Source of the DNA: a virus | Virus record (IMG/VR): IMGVR_UViG_3300027801_000125 | Coordinates: 1-27,909 of that record | DNA: 27,909 nucleotides | Direction: 5' to 3' (one strand) | Part shown: in pieces, positions 2,348 through 7,812 of the stretch | Position numbering within the stretch: position 1 is the first letter of the stretch | Layout of the letters: each line of letters begins with the position of its first letter | Position numbers and translations under genes: made by a program | Notes under the pieces: model-generated | What the model was told of the DNA's origin: nothing | The model's database searches: none | What the model saw: the letters and a program-made list of their open reading frames with translations, nothing else

Positions 2348-2929
2348 ATGATTACAAAGTTACCATTAAGCAAAATAACACCCAACAATGACAATCCTAG
2401 AATAATAAAGGATAATAAATTCAATAAACTGGTTGCAAGTATTAAGGAGTTTCCTGAAATGCTGGATTATAGACCATTAATACTTGATGATAACCACGTT
2501 ATTCTTGGCGGAAATATGAGATACAAGGCTTGTATTGAAGCTGGTCTAACTGAAATACCTTGCCAACTGGTATTCGGCTGGACTGATGAGCAAAAGAAAC
2601 AATTTATAATAAAAGACAACGTAAGTTTCGGTGACTGGGAATGGGATATACTGGCTAATGAGTGGGATAGTGTGGAGCTAGGCACTTGGGGAATGGACGT
2701 ATGGAAAAATGCTGACGATAATTTCTTTAATTTAGATCAAGCGGCTGAAGAGGATAAACCAGCACCAAAGTCAAGTGATAATGATTACAGTTCTTTTGAA
2801 CTAATTATGCTGCACGAAAACAAACTGAAATTTATTGAGGTGCTGGCTGCAATTAAAGAAGAAAATAGCGTTGACAAATTAGAGGACGCGATAATGATAT
2901 TAATTAACAAATACCAAGAAAAAAAATGA
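2348..2929 (+). CDS. ParB/sulfiredoxin-like N-terminal domain protein (first copy)
   Basis: This 193-residue protein has a ParB/Srx-like fold signature in residues 1-110: KITPNNDNPR near residues 9-18, then VILGGNMRYKACIEAG (51-66) with the GGxxR nucleotide-binding box at 54-58. The rest is acidic and lacks the helix-turn-helix and dimer domains of partition ParB, so a plasmid-partition role is unlikely. Members of this superfamily include CTP-binding ParB, ATP-using sulfiredoxin and free-serine kinase, and IbrB partners PAPS-reductase-like IbrA. It is the first gene of a five-gene coupled cassette, overlapping the cupin gene by 4 bases. It begins directly after the repeated leader element, consistent with a new transcription or translation unit. 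Confidence 0.8.
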   Translation: MITKLPLSKITPNNDNPRIIKDNKFNKLVASIKEFPEMLDYRPLILDDNHVILGGNMRYKACIEAGLTEIPCQLVFGWTDEQKKQFIIKDNVSFGDWEWDILANEWDSVELGTWGMDVWKNADDNFFNLDQAAEEDKPAPKSSDNDYSSFELIMLHENKLKFIEVLAAIKEENSVDKLEDAIMILINKYQEKK

Positions 2930-3756
2930 TACCAAAAAACATCAAGTATGAAGAAAATAACGCTTTTATTTCTTTTGACAGTAAAAATTCTGGCCTAGTC
3001 TTTGACGATAGCAGCCACGCAAAATATCCTATAAGATATTATAATGTTATAAACGGAGAAGGGGCTGAAATAAAAAAGGATCATAGTTATTACGGGTTTT
3101 GCTATGAAGGGTTTACAAACTTTCGTAATGAAACTGATCCACCTTTTAATCTAATGAGTGGTCAGGCTTTTTCAATGCAAGGACCTTTTGAATTAACACC
3201 TTCAACTTCAAAAATTATGTTAATTGAAGTGCTGCATACAAAAGGAATATATCCTGAAACTAATTACAAAGCTATGACGGTTGTATGCGGTGGACTTGAA
3301 AAGGAAGGGCGGTTGAAATATATTGACGGATGTACTGATAGTTTATTAATACCTCCAGTTAAAATGGGTGACCCTTGCTTCAATCACTTATCGTTTCCTA
3401 AAAACATTGACCAAACCCAGCACACCCACCCGAGTCATAGAATCGGAATAGTAGCAAAAGGACAAGGCCGTTGTATTACGCCCTTCGGGATATTGCCACT
3501 GGTTAAAGGAATGATATTTGTGATAAAAGAATGGGATAAAAAAACATACAACAAAGGGCTTGACGGTAAAGATTATCCAAATGGTCAGCACTCATTTGAA
3601 ACAACTGATGAAGGTATGGATGTAGTAGCCTTTCACCCTGATAGTGATTTTGGAGCAACTGATATTAACCACCCTATGATAAACCGAACGCTAGTTAAAA
3701 ATGAAAAAGGAGAACTTGTTTCAGCGTCAGAAATTGAAAGCATAAGAACTAAATAA
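2926..3756 (+). CDS. Cupin-domain protein, probably two cupin halves
   Basis: The 276-residue product has a clear C-terminal cupin. Motif 1 is QHTHPSHRIGIVAKGQG with candidate metal ligands H166, H168 and H171, and motif 2 is PNGQH (218-222) with H222. Residues about 35-120 look like a second, degenerate beta-barrel lacking the His cluster, so the protein may be a bicupin. Cupins include dioxygenases, isomerases and sugar or amino-acid binding proteins, so the substrate cannot be told. It lies between a ParB-like gene (4-base overlap) and a PAPS-reductase-like gene (TAATG, one shared base). That position makes an enzymatic role in the same pathway likely. Cysteine dioxygenase-like chemistry is conceivable given the sulfur-linked neighbours, but this is speculative. 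Confidence 0.78.
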   Translation: MIPKNIKYEENNAFISFDSKNSGLVFDDSSHAKYPIRYYNVINGEGAEIKKDHSYYGFCYEGFTNFRNETDPPFNLMSGQAFSMQGPFELTPSTSKIMLIEVLHTKGIYPETNYKAMTVVCGGLEKEGRLKYIDGCTDSLLIPPVKMGDPCFNHLSFPKNIDQTQHTHPSHRIGIVAKGQGRCITPFGILPLVKGMIFVIKEWDKKTYNKGLDGKDYPNGQHSFETTDEGMDVVAFHPDSDFGATDINHPMINRTLVKNEKGELVSASEIESIRTK

Positions 3757-4472
3757 TGCTTAAGGATAAAATAGATGAAGCTACCAATATACTTCTAAAG
3801 GTTGCTCACCGTGATACTATGAGAAACCCTATGCTTTTATGGTCGGGCGGAAAGGATAGTATTGTAACCGCTCACTTAGTTCAAAAAGTCTTAGGTATAA
3901 CTAAGGGCTTTTGTGAAAGTTCATTGATTACGACCGCACTTGATGAAGAGGTGAGGGGGATTTCAAAAGCTATGGGCTTAAATATAGTTTACGAAAACAA
4001 TATATCAAAAGAGAAATTCGCGAGGAACTGGTTTAACCAAGTGCCGCCTAAAAAATGGAAACCGTCAGACTGTGATAAAATAAGACACTGGGATAGCATA
4101 CCAAAGTTCGCTAAGAAAAATAATATCTCAATGATGTTATTTGGTAGAAGGCTTGAAGAAAACACTATCCCGAAACCTTATTATTTCACAAAAAAATACG
4201 GAAAGGCTCTGCAAGTTCACCCTATATATAATTGGACGAGAGCGGAAGTATTTGAGTACAAAGCACAAGAAGGTTTAACGTTCCCGAAGTGTTATTCAGA
4301 CGGCTCTAAACACTTATTTAATATAGTATCTATGATGCAATTTGAATACAAAGCTTCAAATGATATTAATAAATGTTTTGACATACTGGCAAAGGATCAC
4401 TTTGAATACTTAGTTGAAGGGGCAAAAGTTGATGAACGTGCTGCAAAATATCTTGAACAAAATGGCTACTAG
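3756..4472 (+). CDS. PAPS-reductase-like / ATP-pyrophosphatase family protein (short copy)
   Basis: This 238-residue protein carries the PP-loop SGGKDS at residues 30-35, the pyrophosphatase signature of the adenylyl-transfer family that includes CysH, DndC and IbrA. Further family motifs are FGRRLEEN, with its paired Arg, and HPIYNWTRAEVFEY. A KPSDCDKIRH segment sits where the family usually places a substrate-contacting loop. I see no ECGLH motif at the C-terminus, the catalytic site of true PAPS or APS reductases. The start shares one base with the cupin stop and the 3' end overlaps the next paralogue by 11 bases. It probably activates a substrate through adenylation. Sulfate reduction is not supported. 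Confidence 0.8.
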   Translation: MLKDKIDEATNILLKVAHRDTMRNPMLLWSGGKDSIVTAHLVQKVLGITKGFCESSLITTALDEEVRGISKAMGLNIVYENNISKEKFARNWFNQVPPKKWKPSDCDKIRHWDSIPKFAKKNNISMMLFGRRLEENTIPKPYYFTKKYGKALQVHPIYNWTRAEVFEYKAQEGLTFPKCYSDGSKHLFNIVSMMQFEYKASNDINKCFDILAKDHFEYLVEGAKVDERAAKYLEQNGY

Positions 4473-5664
4473 AAAAAAACAATATAACGAAACTAATGTT
4501 TATGATGAAAGTCTTAAAAGGATTGAACACCTTTTTACTTCTTTTGATAATATAGTGGTAAACTTTTCAGCGGGGAAGGATAGTACGGCCGTATTAAACT
4601 TAGCTCTTGAAGTAGCTCTGAAGCTAAATAAACCCCTCTCAGTCAACTTTTTTGATGAAGAGGTAATACACCCGCCCACGATTGAATATGCTGAAAGAGT
4701 AAGAGCATTAAATAAAGGCGTTCAATTTAACTGGTATTGCTTAGAATTTAAACATAGAAACGCTTGTTCAAATGAAGAGCCGTTTTGGTATTGCTGGGAT
4801 AAATCTAAGAAAGATAAATGGGTGCGGCCACTACCAAAAAACGTGATCACTAAACACCCCAAGTTCAAAAAGGAAATGAGTTTCCAAGAGTTTAGCACCT
4901 TGCTACCGAATAAGTCTGACGGCTCAACTTGTATTATGACTGGCGTAAGAACTCAGGAAAGTTTCAGAAGAATGAAAGCGATGTCAGTTAAAAAGAATGA
5001 TAACTACATAGCACGGGAAGGTCATATAGCTCACGCTCACCCGATTTATGATTGGTCAAGTGAGGACGTATGGCTAGCGGTTGTCAAATTTGGCTGGGAT
5101 TATAACAAAACGTATGACGTTATGAATAAGACCAAAATGTATAATAAGTTTCTTCAGCAAAGGGTATGTCCACCTTTCGGAGAAGAGCCGTTACGAGGCT
5201 TGTGGTTGTACTCTGAATGCTTTCCTGAAATGTGGCACAAAATGTTAGATAGAGTTCAAGGGGTTTCAACTGCGTGGCGTTATGCAAATAGTGAACTTTA
5301 TGGAGTAGGTAAAAAAGTGAAGCCTGAAGAAATTGAAAGCTATAAAAAATGGGCTGAAGTAATCCTTGAAAGTTATGACCAAGTTGCGGTTAATACAGTC
5401 AAGACAAATCTTAATACAATCATAAGAAGGCACTATGCGAAAACAAATGATGAGATACCCGATGAAGCTAACCACCCACTAACGGGAACATCTTGGGCTT
5501 TTATATGTAAGTTAGCTATCAAGGGAGATTTCAAAGGACGTACGGGACCAACGCTTGAAGGTAACGCAATTACAGAGCAAAAAAAATTAGGAATACATAC
5601 GTTTGATGAAGCAATAATTAAGTTTGGAAAGCCTGAATATATTAACCGTAAATTTAACAAATAA
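4462..5664 (+). CDS. IbrA-like PAPS-reductase family protein (long copy)
   Basis: I start this 400-residue protein at the ATG at 4462, overlapping the previous stop by 11 bases. An in-frame TTG lies 16 codons further up at 4414. The PP-loop is SAGKDS (residues 36-41). DEEVIHPPT, ITGVRTQES-like MTGVRTQESFRRM, and HPIYDWSSEDVWLAV follow in the expected order. A C-terminal extension with DYNKTYDVMNK and GLWLYSECFPEMW resembles IbrA with its DUF3440 region. No ECGLH motif is present. In E. coli, IbrA with IbrB regulates eib genes, and related pairs occur on phages. Here the IbrB-like gene follows immediately. Function in this phage could be regulatory or nucleic-acid modifying. Confidence 0.82.
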   Translation: MATRKKQYNETNVYDESLKRIEHLFTSFDNIVVNFSAGKDSTAVLNLALEVALKLNKPLSVNFFDEEVIHPPTIEYAERVRALNKGVQFNWYCLEFKHRNACSNEEPFWYCWDKSKKDKWVRPLPKNVITKHPKFKKEMSFQEFSTLLPNKSDGSTCIMTGVRTQESFRRMKAMSVKKNDNYIAREGHIAHAHPIYDWSSEDVWLAVVKFGWDYNKTYDVMNKTKMYNKFLQQRVCPPFGEEPLRGLWLYSECFPEMWHKMLDRVQGVSTAWRYANSELYGVGKKVKPEEIESYKKWAEVILESYDQVAVNTVKTNLNTIIRRHYAKTNDEIPDEANHPLTGTSWAFICKLAIKGDFKGRTGPTLEGNAITEQKKLGIHTFDEAIIKFGKPEYINRKFNK

Positions 5665-6162
5665 ATGAAACAACCACTTGACAAAATTGAATGGATTGAT
5701 AGGAAGAAATTAACGCCTAACAATTATAATCCTAACAAAGTAGCACCCCGTGAATTAAAGCTATTGAAAACCTCAATACTTGAAGATGGTTGGACGCAGC
5801 CAATTGTCATTAATCCTGACCATACAATCGTTGACGGGTTTCATCGTTGGACGGTTTCAGGAGATAAAGATATATTTGAATTAACTAAAGGTAAAGTTCC
5901 AGTTGTTATGGTTTATCCAAAAGATAAAAGTCAGCAACAAATGGCCACCATAAGACACAACCGAGCAAGAGGAACTCACGGCGTTTTAGAAATGAGTAAG
6001 ATTATTACTGATATGAAAGAACAAGGTATAAGCGGAGAGGATATGATGAAGCGTTTAGGTATGGAACGGGAAGAGGTTGTTCGGCTACTGTTTAGGGCTG
6101 GCATTCCTAAAAGTGAAGTGTTCAAAGAAAAGGAGTTTAGTAAATCTTGGACTCCTGAATAA
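5665..6162 (+). CDS. IbrB-like ParB/sulfiredoxin domain protein (second copy)
   Basis: A 165-residue single-domain ParB/Srx-like protein. Visible motifs are KKLTPNNYNPN (14-24), PIVINPDHTIVDGFHRW (46-62) with the DGFHR box, and IRHNRARGTHG, which I associate with IbrB-type proteins. A C-terminal helical part (MSKIITDMKEQGISGEDMMKR) resembles the helix-turn-helix of ParB, so DNA binding is possible. The ATG follows the IbrA-like stop without a gap, and its own stop shares a base with the TerS start. It is only weakly similar to the ParB-like protein at 2348, which shares fold motifs but not the HNRARG segment, so the two are not a recent duplication. Confidence 0.82.
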   Translation: MKQPLDKIEWIDRKKLTPNNYNPNKVAPRELKLLKTSILEDGWTQPIVINPDHTIVDGFHRWTVSGDKDIFELTKGKVPVVMVYPKDKSQQQMATIRHNRARGTHGVLEMSKIITDMKEQGISGEDMMKRLGMEREEVVRLLFRAGIPKSEVFKEKEFSKSWTPE

Positions 6163-6512
6163 TGAACAAAACTGAACACAATAAAAAAGGTATGCTTGAC
6201 GCTCTTGAAAAGTCGCTCGGTATTGTTACCACCGCTTGCAAGAATGTAGGCATAGGAAGAACGATATACTATGAATGGTTGAAGTCTGATGAAGCATTTG
6301 CTCAAGCGGTTAAAGAGGTTTCAAATATAGCTCTTGACTTTGCTGAAAGCCAACTGCATAAGCAAATAGGTGACGGGAACACTTCAGCTACTATTTTTTA
6401 TCTAAAGACAAAAGGTAAAAAGCGGGGTTACGTTGAGCGGTCAGAACTTGACTTACAAAGCGGTGACGAGCCTATCAAAATAAACGTAAACATCAAGGGA
6501 GTTGAACATTGA
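6162..6512 (+). CDS. terS: Terminase small subunit
   Basis: This 116-residue protein has an N-terminal helix-turn-helix (LGIVTTACKNVGIGRTIYYEWL, in parts at residues 19-40), followed by DEAFAQAVKEV and ATIFYLKTKGKKRGYVER. This is the usual order in phBC6A51-type small terminases. It would recognise phage DNA and load the large subunit for packaging. Its position directly before TerL supports the call. The ATG shares one base with the IbrB-like stop (TAATG), and the 3' end overlaps TerL by 11 bases. The coupling ties packaging-gene expression to the cassette upstream. Confidence 0.88.
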   Translation: MNKTEHNKKGMLDALEKSLGIVTTACKNVGIGRTIYYEWLKSDEAFAQAVKEVSNIALDFAESQLHKQIGDGNTSATIFYLKTKGKKRGYVERSELDLQSGDEPIKINVNIKGVEH

Positions 6513-7812
6513 AACTAGCTTTACTTATACGCAAGAGCAAGCAATAGAATATCTATTTGACGACAAAACAACTGAAGTCTTATTTGGTGGTGCTGCGGGT
6601 GGTGGAAAAAGTTGGGTTGGATGTAGCTGGTTAGTTTTATGTTGCTTGAAATATCCTAAAACTAGATACTTGATGGGGCGTTCAAAATTACACTCACTCA
6701 AAACAACCACGCTAAACACCTTCCTTGAAGTTTGTCAAGTATGGGGCTTGATAGCGAATAAGCATTATACTTTAAATGGAGCGTCAAATATAATACGCTT
6801 TTATAACGGCTCTGAAGTTATGATGAAAGACTTATTTTTATATCCTTCAGATAGGAACTTTGACAATTTAGGATCACTTGAATTAACTGGGGCTTTCATT
6901 GATGAGTGCAATCAAATAACTGAAAAGGCTAAAAACATAGTGAGTTCAAGAATAAGATATAAGCTAGATGAGTATGGCCTTATCCCTAAAATGCTAATGA
7001 CTTGTAATCCAGCGAAAAACTGGGTTTACTCTCAATACTACCGCCCCGCCAAGGAAGGGAAACAAAAGCCTTTCAGACGCTTTATTCAAAGCCTAGTTGA
7101 CGATAACCAATATATTTCAAAGCACTATAAAACCCAACTTGAAACACTTGATGAACTTAGTAAGCAACGGCTCTTATTTGGCAACTGGGAATACGATGCA
7201 AGCAAAGACGATTTGATAAAATACGACGCTATCATTAACCTATTTGAGCAGCAAGGCGTGAAAGGTCAGAATTACATAAGTTGTGACGTGGCTCGTTTTG
7301 GTAGCGATAAAACAATCATAATAGTCTGGGAAGGGTTACATATTAAAAAGATAAGAAAGTTGCTTAAATCAGCTATAAATGACGTTGTAAGCGAAGTCAG
7401 GGAGCTTCAACAAGCCTACTCCGTTCCACTGCATAACATTATAATTGATGAAGATGGTGTCGGCGGAGGGGCGAAGGATTACTTACGCTGCAAAGGTTTC
7501 GTGAATAATAGCCGCCCACTTAAAAAAGAAAATTATCAGAACTTAAAAACTCAATGCTATTATAAGTTGGCTTCAACAATCAATAAAGGTCAAATAGGTA
7601 TCACTTGTCCTGACGTTGCTGATAAGCAAGCTATAATTGAAGAACTTGAACAAATAAAAACAAAGGACGCTGATAAGGATAATAAACTTCAAATGATACC
7701 AAAGGATCAAGTGAAAGACATAATTGGTAGATCACCCGATTATGCTGATGCTATGGCTATGAGAATGTATTATGAGATTGACCAAAACTTCGGAAAGTAT
7801 TATGTTCAATAA
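6502..7812 (+). CDS. terL: Terminase large subunit
   Basis: The 436-residue protein has the two-domain TerL layout. The ATPase half has Walker A GGAAGGGKS (29-37) and Walker B GAFIDE ending at D134-E135. The nuclease half has CDVARFGSDKT with D262, IIIDEDGVGGGAKD, and a final acidic motif in DYADAMAMRM, giving the metal-binding Asp residues of an RNase H-like nuclease. The length is normal. The start is a TTG at 6502, because no ATG precedes Walker A and the first internal ATG would delete it. The TTG overlaps the TerS stop by 11 bases, so coupled re-initiation is likely. The gene is followed by a hairpin and then by tail genes rather than by a portal. Confidence 0.95.
   Translation: MNIETSFTYTQEQAIEYLFDDKTTEVLFGGAAGGGKSWVGCSWLVLCCLKYPKTRYLMGRSKLHSLKTTTLNTFLEVCQVWGLIANKHYTLNGASNIIRFYNGSEVMMKDLFLYPSDRNFDNLGSLELTGAFIDECNQITEKAKNIVSSRIRYKLDEYGLIPKMLMTCNPAKNWVYSQYYRPAKEGKQKPFRRFIQSLVDDNQYISKHYKTQLETLDELSKQRLLFGNWEYDASKDDLIKYDAIINLFEQQGVKGQNYISCDVARFGSDKTIIIVWEGLHIKKIRKLLKSAINDVVSEVRELQQAYSVPLHNIIIDEDGVGGGAKDYLRCKGFVNNSRPLKKENYQNLKTQCYYKLASTINKGQIGITCPDVADKQAIIEELEQIKTKDADKDNKLQMIPKDQVKDIIGRSPDYADAMAMRMYYEIDQNFGKYYVQ

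Follow-up and report, generated by a model that had tools for sequence, protein, structure and literature searches.

What might a virus gain by encoding two ParB/Srx-fold proteins, a cupin and two PP-loop proteins of the PAPS-reductase type back to back, directly before its terminase genes? The question is raised by IMG/VR virus record IMGVR_UViG_3300027801_000125, of which positions 1 to 27,909 form the window analyzed here (the whole stretch of 27,909 nucleotides). Five open reading frames (ORFs) on the + strand, pB1, cup, PP1, PP2 and pB2, occupy positions 2348-6162, with every junction overlapping or abutting, as an initial annotation made from the letters of the DNA had described; their G+C content is uniform with that of the remaining contig. 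We found that the conserved entity is not this quintet; it is a core of four genes, pB1-cupin-PP2-pB2 (the quartet), which is inherited as a unit and accompanied by swappable accessories. Chance does not explain the arrangement, since 60 non-redundant viral contigs carry the quartet. Its most economical reading is an enzyme pathway for small-molecule chemistry or base modification, and we regard the more specific prediction, from sequence and gene context, that the quartet is a phage DNA-modification module as evenly balanced between right and wrong.

The two outer genes code for the ParB/Srx-fold proteins. pB1 (2348-2929, + strand; 193 amino acids (aa)) displays a GGNMR motif and a short C-terminal domain, and pB2 (5665-6162, + strand; 165 aa) is IbrB-like, matching phrog_2159 of the IbrB family at 2.6e-66. 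Both fall slightly short of the Pfam cut-off for ParB_N (E ~4e-5 in either case), and both gave strong matches to several ParB PHROGs. PP2 (4462-5664, + strand; 400 aa) is an IbrA-like PP-loop protein with a helical DUF3440 C-terminus, recovered by the Pfam families PAPS_reduct and DUF3440 and by phrog_2302 of the IbrA family (3e-87), and the optional PP1 (3756-4472, + strand; 238 aa) is a PP-loop ATP-pyrophosphatase of the PAPS-reductase/CysD type with an SGGKDS motif (Pfam PAPS_reduct, E 1e-14). The second gene, cup (2926-3756, + strand; 276 aa), encodes a two-domain protein for which neither Pfam nor PHROGs returned a family and whose profile found nothing significant by sequence among solved structures. 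It was rightly called a cupin in the initial annotation: its diverged homologue in L026, a 71-kb virus contig, matches Cupin_2 at 8.5e-11, and its AlphaFold model, built from 17 homologues (pLDDT 83), shows a bicupin that matches numerous cupins in the PDB. The fold search ranks the ureidoglycine-aminohydrolase/DUF861 type first and also retrieves AerE, BacB and quercetinase, although such model-based matches do not fix a reaction.

The near-mirror order of the five genes could suggest a recent duplication, which we reject, in agreement with the initial annotation: pB1 and pB2 are 27% identical over 94 aa, PP1 and PP2 are 26% identical over 50 aa, and PP1 is found in just 11 of the 60 quartets. 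The IbrA/IbrB-like pair noted at 4462-6162 is borne out by the PHROG assignments of PP2 and pB2. The second, diverged pair that had been seen joined to it does not exist as such, because PP1 is dispensable and pB1 is nearly always present and less like IbrB. Instead, pB1 is closer to DNA-methyltransferase-associated ParB domains and to the ParB at the head of actinophage left-end modification operons.

The evidence for a unit comes from tblastn searches at E 1e-3, which underlie all the co-occurrence counts given here. Querying viral contigs with the cupin yielded 25 contigs, in which pB1, PP2 and pB2 flank it wherever the sequence extends far enough. As this set was chosen by the cupin itself, the search was repeated starting from PP2 and from pB2. 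The PP2 query recovered 50 non-redundant viral contigs; those with at least 2.2 kb upstream have the cupin in 28 of 28 cases and pB1 in 27 of 28, and pB2 is present in 48 of the 48 with enough downstream sequence. Starting from pB2, contigs with at least 3.6 kb upstream contain PP2 (29/29), the cupin (29/29) and pB1 (28/29). Since the PP2 and pB2 searches reach down to ~45% identity (in PP2), the statement on co-occurrence is limited to this clade. Across the quartets, pairwise distances measured on one of the four proteins are correlated with those on the others, most strongly for PP2 with pB2 (r = 0.58). The cupin is replaced by a distant relative in L179, L183 and L185 and relocated behind pB2, with all four genes kept, in the Endozoicomonas contig L092; the viral contig L219 possibly presents a second such relocation, with a very diverged cupin. 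Two further scans have little to say: a PP1-only scan of viral contigs gave no matches, indicating that PP1 is too diverged for the method, and a pB1-only scan gave 80 contigs without the quartet, which is uninformative on co-occurrence because ParB proteins of the pB1 type are common elsewhere. The PP2 and pB2 counts fail to refute the initial annotation for four of the genes, as related phages do not carry random subsets of them; what it proposed as a pathway of five enzymes is a conserved system, with a core of four genes.

What varies around this core is itself largely enzymatic. In another group of phages (L011, L118, L120, L140 and others), the PP1 slot is taken by PP1b, a PP-loop protein distinct from PP1, with a class II glutamine amidotransferase (GAT) next in line; 10 of 10 GAT proteins start with MCG(I/L) and have the HNG motif intact (a set that is not dereplicated and partly derives from overlapping loci). 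Between PP2 and pB2, 12 of the 60 quartets have an uncharacterized protein of 160-171 aa (e.g., L012:8978-9472, L021:5935-6450 and L022:3477-3959) with the motif VYAKSY..PH.YTTRDRV and no significant Pfam or PHROG family, and seven of the 60 have a PD-(D/E)XK nuclease (Pfam PDDEXK_1 at the cut-off). A short-chain dehydrogenase lies between pB1 and the cupin in L179, L183 and L185. The accessories are enzymes of small-molecule or nucleic-acid chemistry; 26 of the 60 quartets are without any of PP1, PP1b, GAT, the 164-aa uncharacterized protein and the nuclease, in a tally confined to these five families. The closest relative of the window features a SET-domain protein (L002:3521-3892; Pfam SET 8.5e-10) between pB2 and the small terminase gene.

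The quartet also occurs under bacterial names. A full copy followed by a terminase-small-subunit-like ORF is found on a 1.39-Mb contig of a Chitinophagaceae metagenome-assembled genome (MAG; JANINS010000004.1, L027:7376-11500); it is apparently a prophage, which suggests that the hosts of this group are Bacteroidota. The locus L040, labeled as a Crocinitomicaceae MAG, probably represents viral sequence that was binned with a bacterial genome, because it matches the virus contig L026 across the cassette with identical neighbors.

The second line of evidence is position. Downstream of pB2, the window encodes the small (6162-6512, + strand; phrog_309, 1.9e-9, and the neighbors in relatives) and large (6502-7812, + strand; phrog_2, 1.6e-30) terminase subunits, terS and terL, which serve as position markers. 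With the ORFs read by eye, pB2 runs into the terminase region in nearly all quartets with data, L026 being the exception. The terminases that follow belong to numerous types between which BLAST detects no similarity; the same order and position across phages with unrelated terminases, therefore, argues that the module is under selection as a unit.

The equivalent slot in cultured actinophages, compared through public annotations with TA17A, Newman and Nozo as representatives of the Mycobacterium phage groups B2, B1 and B3, provides a clue to function. Nozo (B3) has the order ParB-x-x-PAPS reductase (IbrA)-ParB (IbrB)-terL, where x marks two small ORFs, and the Arthrobacter phage Laroye has ParB-PAPS reductase (IbrA)-ParB (IbrB)-methyltransferase-terS-terL, with the methyltransferase adjacent to the pair. 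These loci, including that of the B3 phage Phlyer, share the order and place of the cassette; their PP2 and pB2 counterparts are homologous (E 1e-29 to 1e-39; ~30% identity for PP2 and 38-44% for pB2) and their head ParB is related to pB1 at the profile level, but they are without a cupin, and a search of 50,697 named phage records recovered no homologue of it. In the B2 phage TA17A of the Bclasvirinae, the slot before terL instead holds ParB-DpdA-QueC-QueD-QueE-FolE; Knocker has a similar preQ0 set, and Newman (B1) has no cargo between the genome start and terL. The gp1 ParBs of B2 and B3 phages are ~40% identical, and pB1 matches them in architecture. Its alignment, along its length, with the profile of actinophage left-end head ParBs (hhalign, 173 columns, E 3e-6, probability 88%) lends moderate support to a relationship. 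The DNA of Rosebush, a member of the B2 group, carries dPreQ0 at 28% of G (PMC6884629). As the B2 preQ0 operon and the B3 IbrA/IbrB genes lie in the same slot behind related ParBs, a proven DNA-modification operon and an IbrA/IbrB pair share a place.

Across the first 6 kb of Bclasvirinae and Gordonia phage genomes (L358, L353, L359, L360 and L361), the slot from the genome start to terL is a ParB-headed swap site, with preQ0 genes, IbrA/IbrB, an adenylate kinase plus unknown proteins, or an oxidoreductase plus unknown proteins as its cargo. The unknown gene sets in this site are candidates for further DNA-modification systems.

We found no description of ParB, cupin and PAPS-reductase-like genes together in the open paper library that was searched. 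Within that library, the impression of the initial annotation that no described system has this composition holds for the cupin-bearing set, but not for the cupin-less ParB-IbrA-IbrB core, for which annotations already exist in Arthrobacter phages and Mycobacterium B3 phages in culture. From the IbrA/IbrB pairs of E. coli and phages, with which it shares both PHROG families, the DUF3440 tail and the adjacent ParB partner, the cassette differs in that the pair is inseparable from the upstream pB1 and cupin.

The proteins of the quartet look active, judging from the motifs conserved in PP2, pB2 and the cupin. PP2 retains SxGKDS, D65/E67 and GxRxxESxxR in practically every member, the distant homologues of cultured phages among them, and its family suggests that it adenylates its substrate. 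pB2 has the invariant motifs DGxHR and TxRxNRAxGxH. In the phage cupins, the residues H166, H168, H222, R172, E125, C136, D138 and N153 are invariant, of which the three histidines are, by analogy with the family, the presumed metal ligands; the presumed active-site residues are also kept in nearly all of 79 bacterial homologues.

These bacterial homologues offer a hint as to the partner of the cupin. The 80 bacterial cupin loci, from Bacteroidota, Maricaulis, Planctomycetes, Verrucomicrobia, cyanobacteria and others, share with the phage cassette the cupin family and an enriched PP-loop partner; unlike it, those that pair the cupin with AsnB or SGGIDS proteins (Lewinella, Microscilla, Planctomycetes, Verrucomicrobia) are chromosomal, and ParB partners are lacking in most. 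The neighbors include AsnB-type proteins (L068: Asn_synthase 3e-68) and a small PP-loop protein with an SGGIDS motif, and within 4 kb of the cupin, ORFs of these two kinds number 33 (518 kb of sequence), versus four in the 494 kb farther off. The phage PP1b+GAT pair echoes this association, and the cupin, therefore, probably works with an ATP-using ligase. Among these loci, 19 from Bacteroidota, Planctomycetes, Verrucomicrobia and Acidobacteria (L068:7872-11378, L062, L063, L066 and others) display a chromosomal trio of the cupin, a zinc-ribbon membrane-like protein with a weak Toprim match and an AsnB homologue, for which we found no name. The SGGIDS protein (350-370 aa) adjoins the cupin in L029, L033, L036, L046, L049, L081, L091 and L094; the two tested, from L029 and L091, had no Pfam match at all, and the protein possibly represents an undescribed family.

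How, then, might the quartet modify DNA? The best explanation places the modification on a DNA base, the backbone being less likely. More tentatively, and at odds that we put clearly below even, we propose an undescribed base modification: an IbrA-type PP-loop enzyme would activate the base itself by adenylation and then attach a group that the cupin has made, with the IbrA/IbrB pairs of cultured mycobacteriophages and E. coli as a simpler form. In the best explanation, PP2 would use ATP for the adenylation of a target atom in DNA or in a nucleotide precursor, most likely that of a base carbonyl or of a carboxylate, after which the AMP would be displaced by a nucleophile. The cupin, as a metal enzyme, would make or finish the small molecule to be added, assisted in some phages by the dehydrogenase or by glutamine-fed amidation through PP1b+GAT. 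pB1 and pB2, which probably bind or hydrolyze nucleoside triphosphates, may recruit PP2 to DNA or select where it acts, and the resulting modification would shield the genome against host nucleases at about the time of packaging. Direct activation of a base by adenylation is the chemistry of TilS and MnmA on tRNA. In support, we count the obligate co-occurrence from two cupin-independent queries, the terminase-adjacent placement, the shared Bclasvirinae slot and the intact PP2 motifs, as well as the precedent of the phage ligase CmoY (see below) and the PP-loop genes beside bacterial cupins.

Several observations weigh against DNA modification. Among 22 quartet contigs (27-71 kb), a C5-methyltransferase (PF00145) occurs in one and an N6/N4-methyltransferase in two, and the thymidylate-synthase family (PF00303) and QueC (over the cut-off) in none, absences that, in virus records that are mostly fragments, are not proof. 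With these usual first-step modifiers almost absent, there is no known enzyme to install a chemical handle, and PP2 would have to act on the base directly. The same scarcity makes a handle from such enzymes unlikely and leads us to prefer direct base activation; dependence on a first step of the CmoX, Dpd or thymidylate-synthase type is thereby rejected. The adjacency to the terminase may stem from placement in the late operon, and the bacterial cupins, with AsnB and NeuB-like sugar genes as neighbors, hint at a substrate that is a small molecule and not necessarily DNA. Finally, to our knowledge, IbrA and IbrB are known solely as genetic co-activators of prophage genes, from work in E. coli.

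This last point feeds the foremost alternative, a regulatory or host-takeover module of IbrA/IbrB-like co-activators that would, for instance, covalently alter an RNA-polymerase partner or tRNA, with the cupin making a ligand. The subsystem name of IbrA/IbrB, 'coactivators of prophage gene expression' (PMC5874904), DNA binding by ParB folds and the location of the cassette at the junction to the late genes are consistent with it. However, a conserved set of four enzymes whose ATP sites and presumed metal sites are intact, with an optional glutaminase, dehydrogenase and second PP-loop protein, far exceeds the needs of a regulator, and Pfam and PHROGs reveal no activation or DNA-binding domain besides ParB; we consider this explanation unlikely, if worth keeping in view. 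Next, and at a similarly low level of plausibility, the cassette might make or destroy a small nucleotide or metabolite of host immunity. ParB/Srx proteins of conflict systems have nucleotidase activity (PMC10853773, PMC12839542), accessory genes are swapped freely as in arms races, and bacterial cupin homologues lie in small-molecule loci. Such a counter-defense role sits poorly with the fixed order and terminase adjacency, which are unusual for anti-defense genes that tend to cluster variably, and the Bclasvirinae slot equivalence favors DNA modification.

Comparison with described DNA-modification systems brings out both kinship and difference. The 7-deazaguanine (dPreQ0) system of Rosebush shares the related head ParB, the slot before terL and a PP-loop enzyme, QueC, but the cassette is without DpdA/TGT, QueD, QueE and FolE. 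The CmoA/CmoX/CmoY system of 5-carboxymethylcytosine hypermodification resembles it in three respects, namely a PP-loop ligase that forms AMP, the association of some variants with a glutaminase domain, and neighbors with ParB domains: CmoY, an AsnB-like PP-loop ligase of phages, has a carboxymethylated base in DNA as its substrate, its neighborhoods often contain ParB-domain genes, and one cluster carries a glutaminase domain (PMC12783734). By analogy, PP1b+GAT would be a split version of a CmoY-relative ligase with a glutaminase domain. Nevertheless, the CmoX-like C5-methyltransferase is confined to the single contig noted above, and CmoY is of the AsnB type, to which the profile of PP2, a protein of the PAPS-reductase type, aligns over the 18-column PP-loop only. 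Pathways through 5-hydroxymethyl-pyrimidines differ in their thymidylate-synthase-like hydroxymethylase (PF00303), which the 22 quartet contigs lack.

Dnd/Ssp-like phosphorothioation of DNA, with PP2 inserting sulfur, has family resemblance in its favor. DndC/SspD is likewise a PP-loop enzyme of the PAPS-reductase type, with DndB as a partner of the ParB superfamily; PP1 and PP2 fall in the same PP-loop branch, PP2 has weak DndC matches (38 bits), and its fold matches include the sulfurtransferases TtuA, NcsA and LarE. Yet no cysteine of PP2 is invariant across the 60 quartets (the best position reaches 90%), and DndD, DndE, SspB, SspC and a cysteine desulfurase are not among the five proteins, to which that search was confined. 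We deem this route improbable; sulfiredoxin-type or cysteine-based sulfur chemistry in PP2 is rejected for want of an invariant cysteine, which likewise leaves the sulfur-based chemistry that the initial annotation had entertained without support. Another conceivable arrangement is a 3-His cupin resembling thiol dioxygenases that would feed a sulfiredoxin-like ParB. Defining components of the Dnd/Ssp, Dpd/Que and Cmo systems were looked for in turn and are absent, so the cassette is none of the three.

Still less probable, to the point of being very doubtful, is sulfur assimilation, with PP1 and PP2 as true PAPS reductases that raise the cysteine supply of the host. Routine annotation points that way, and phage papers class such genes as auxiliary metabolic genes (e.g., PMC10434257). 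Against this, the ECG(L/I)H tail with the catalytic cysteine of PAPS/APS reductase (CysH) is absent from the sequences of both PP1 and PP2, PP2 again offers no invariant cysteine, and the obligate ParB and cupin partners would be left unexplained. Least credible of all is segregation or nuclease cargo assembled from chance morons, for which the two ParB domains and the PHROG name 'partition protein' might speak. The strict co-occurrence and order contradict it, as does the retention of all four genes in the rearranged L092, and no ParA or parS turned up within the cassette.

Both phages and E. coli commonly carry IbrA/IbrB pairs, and we found no established biochemical function for them. The present finding sets them in a fixed, enzyme-rich module and, by way of the Bclasvirinae slot, beside a proven DNA-modification operon, which makes their function directly testable in cultured phages such as the B3 mycobacteriophages. 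If the proposed DNA modification is true, the quartet would extend viral DNA chemistry by a further class and show PP-loop and cupin enzymes in a new role.

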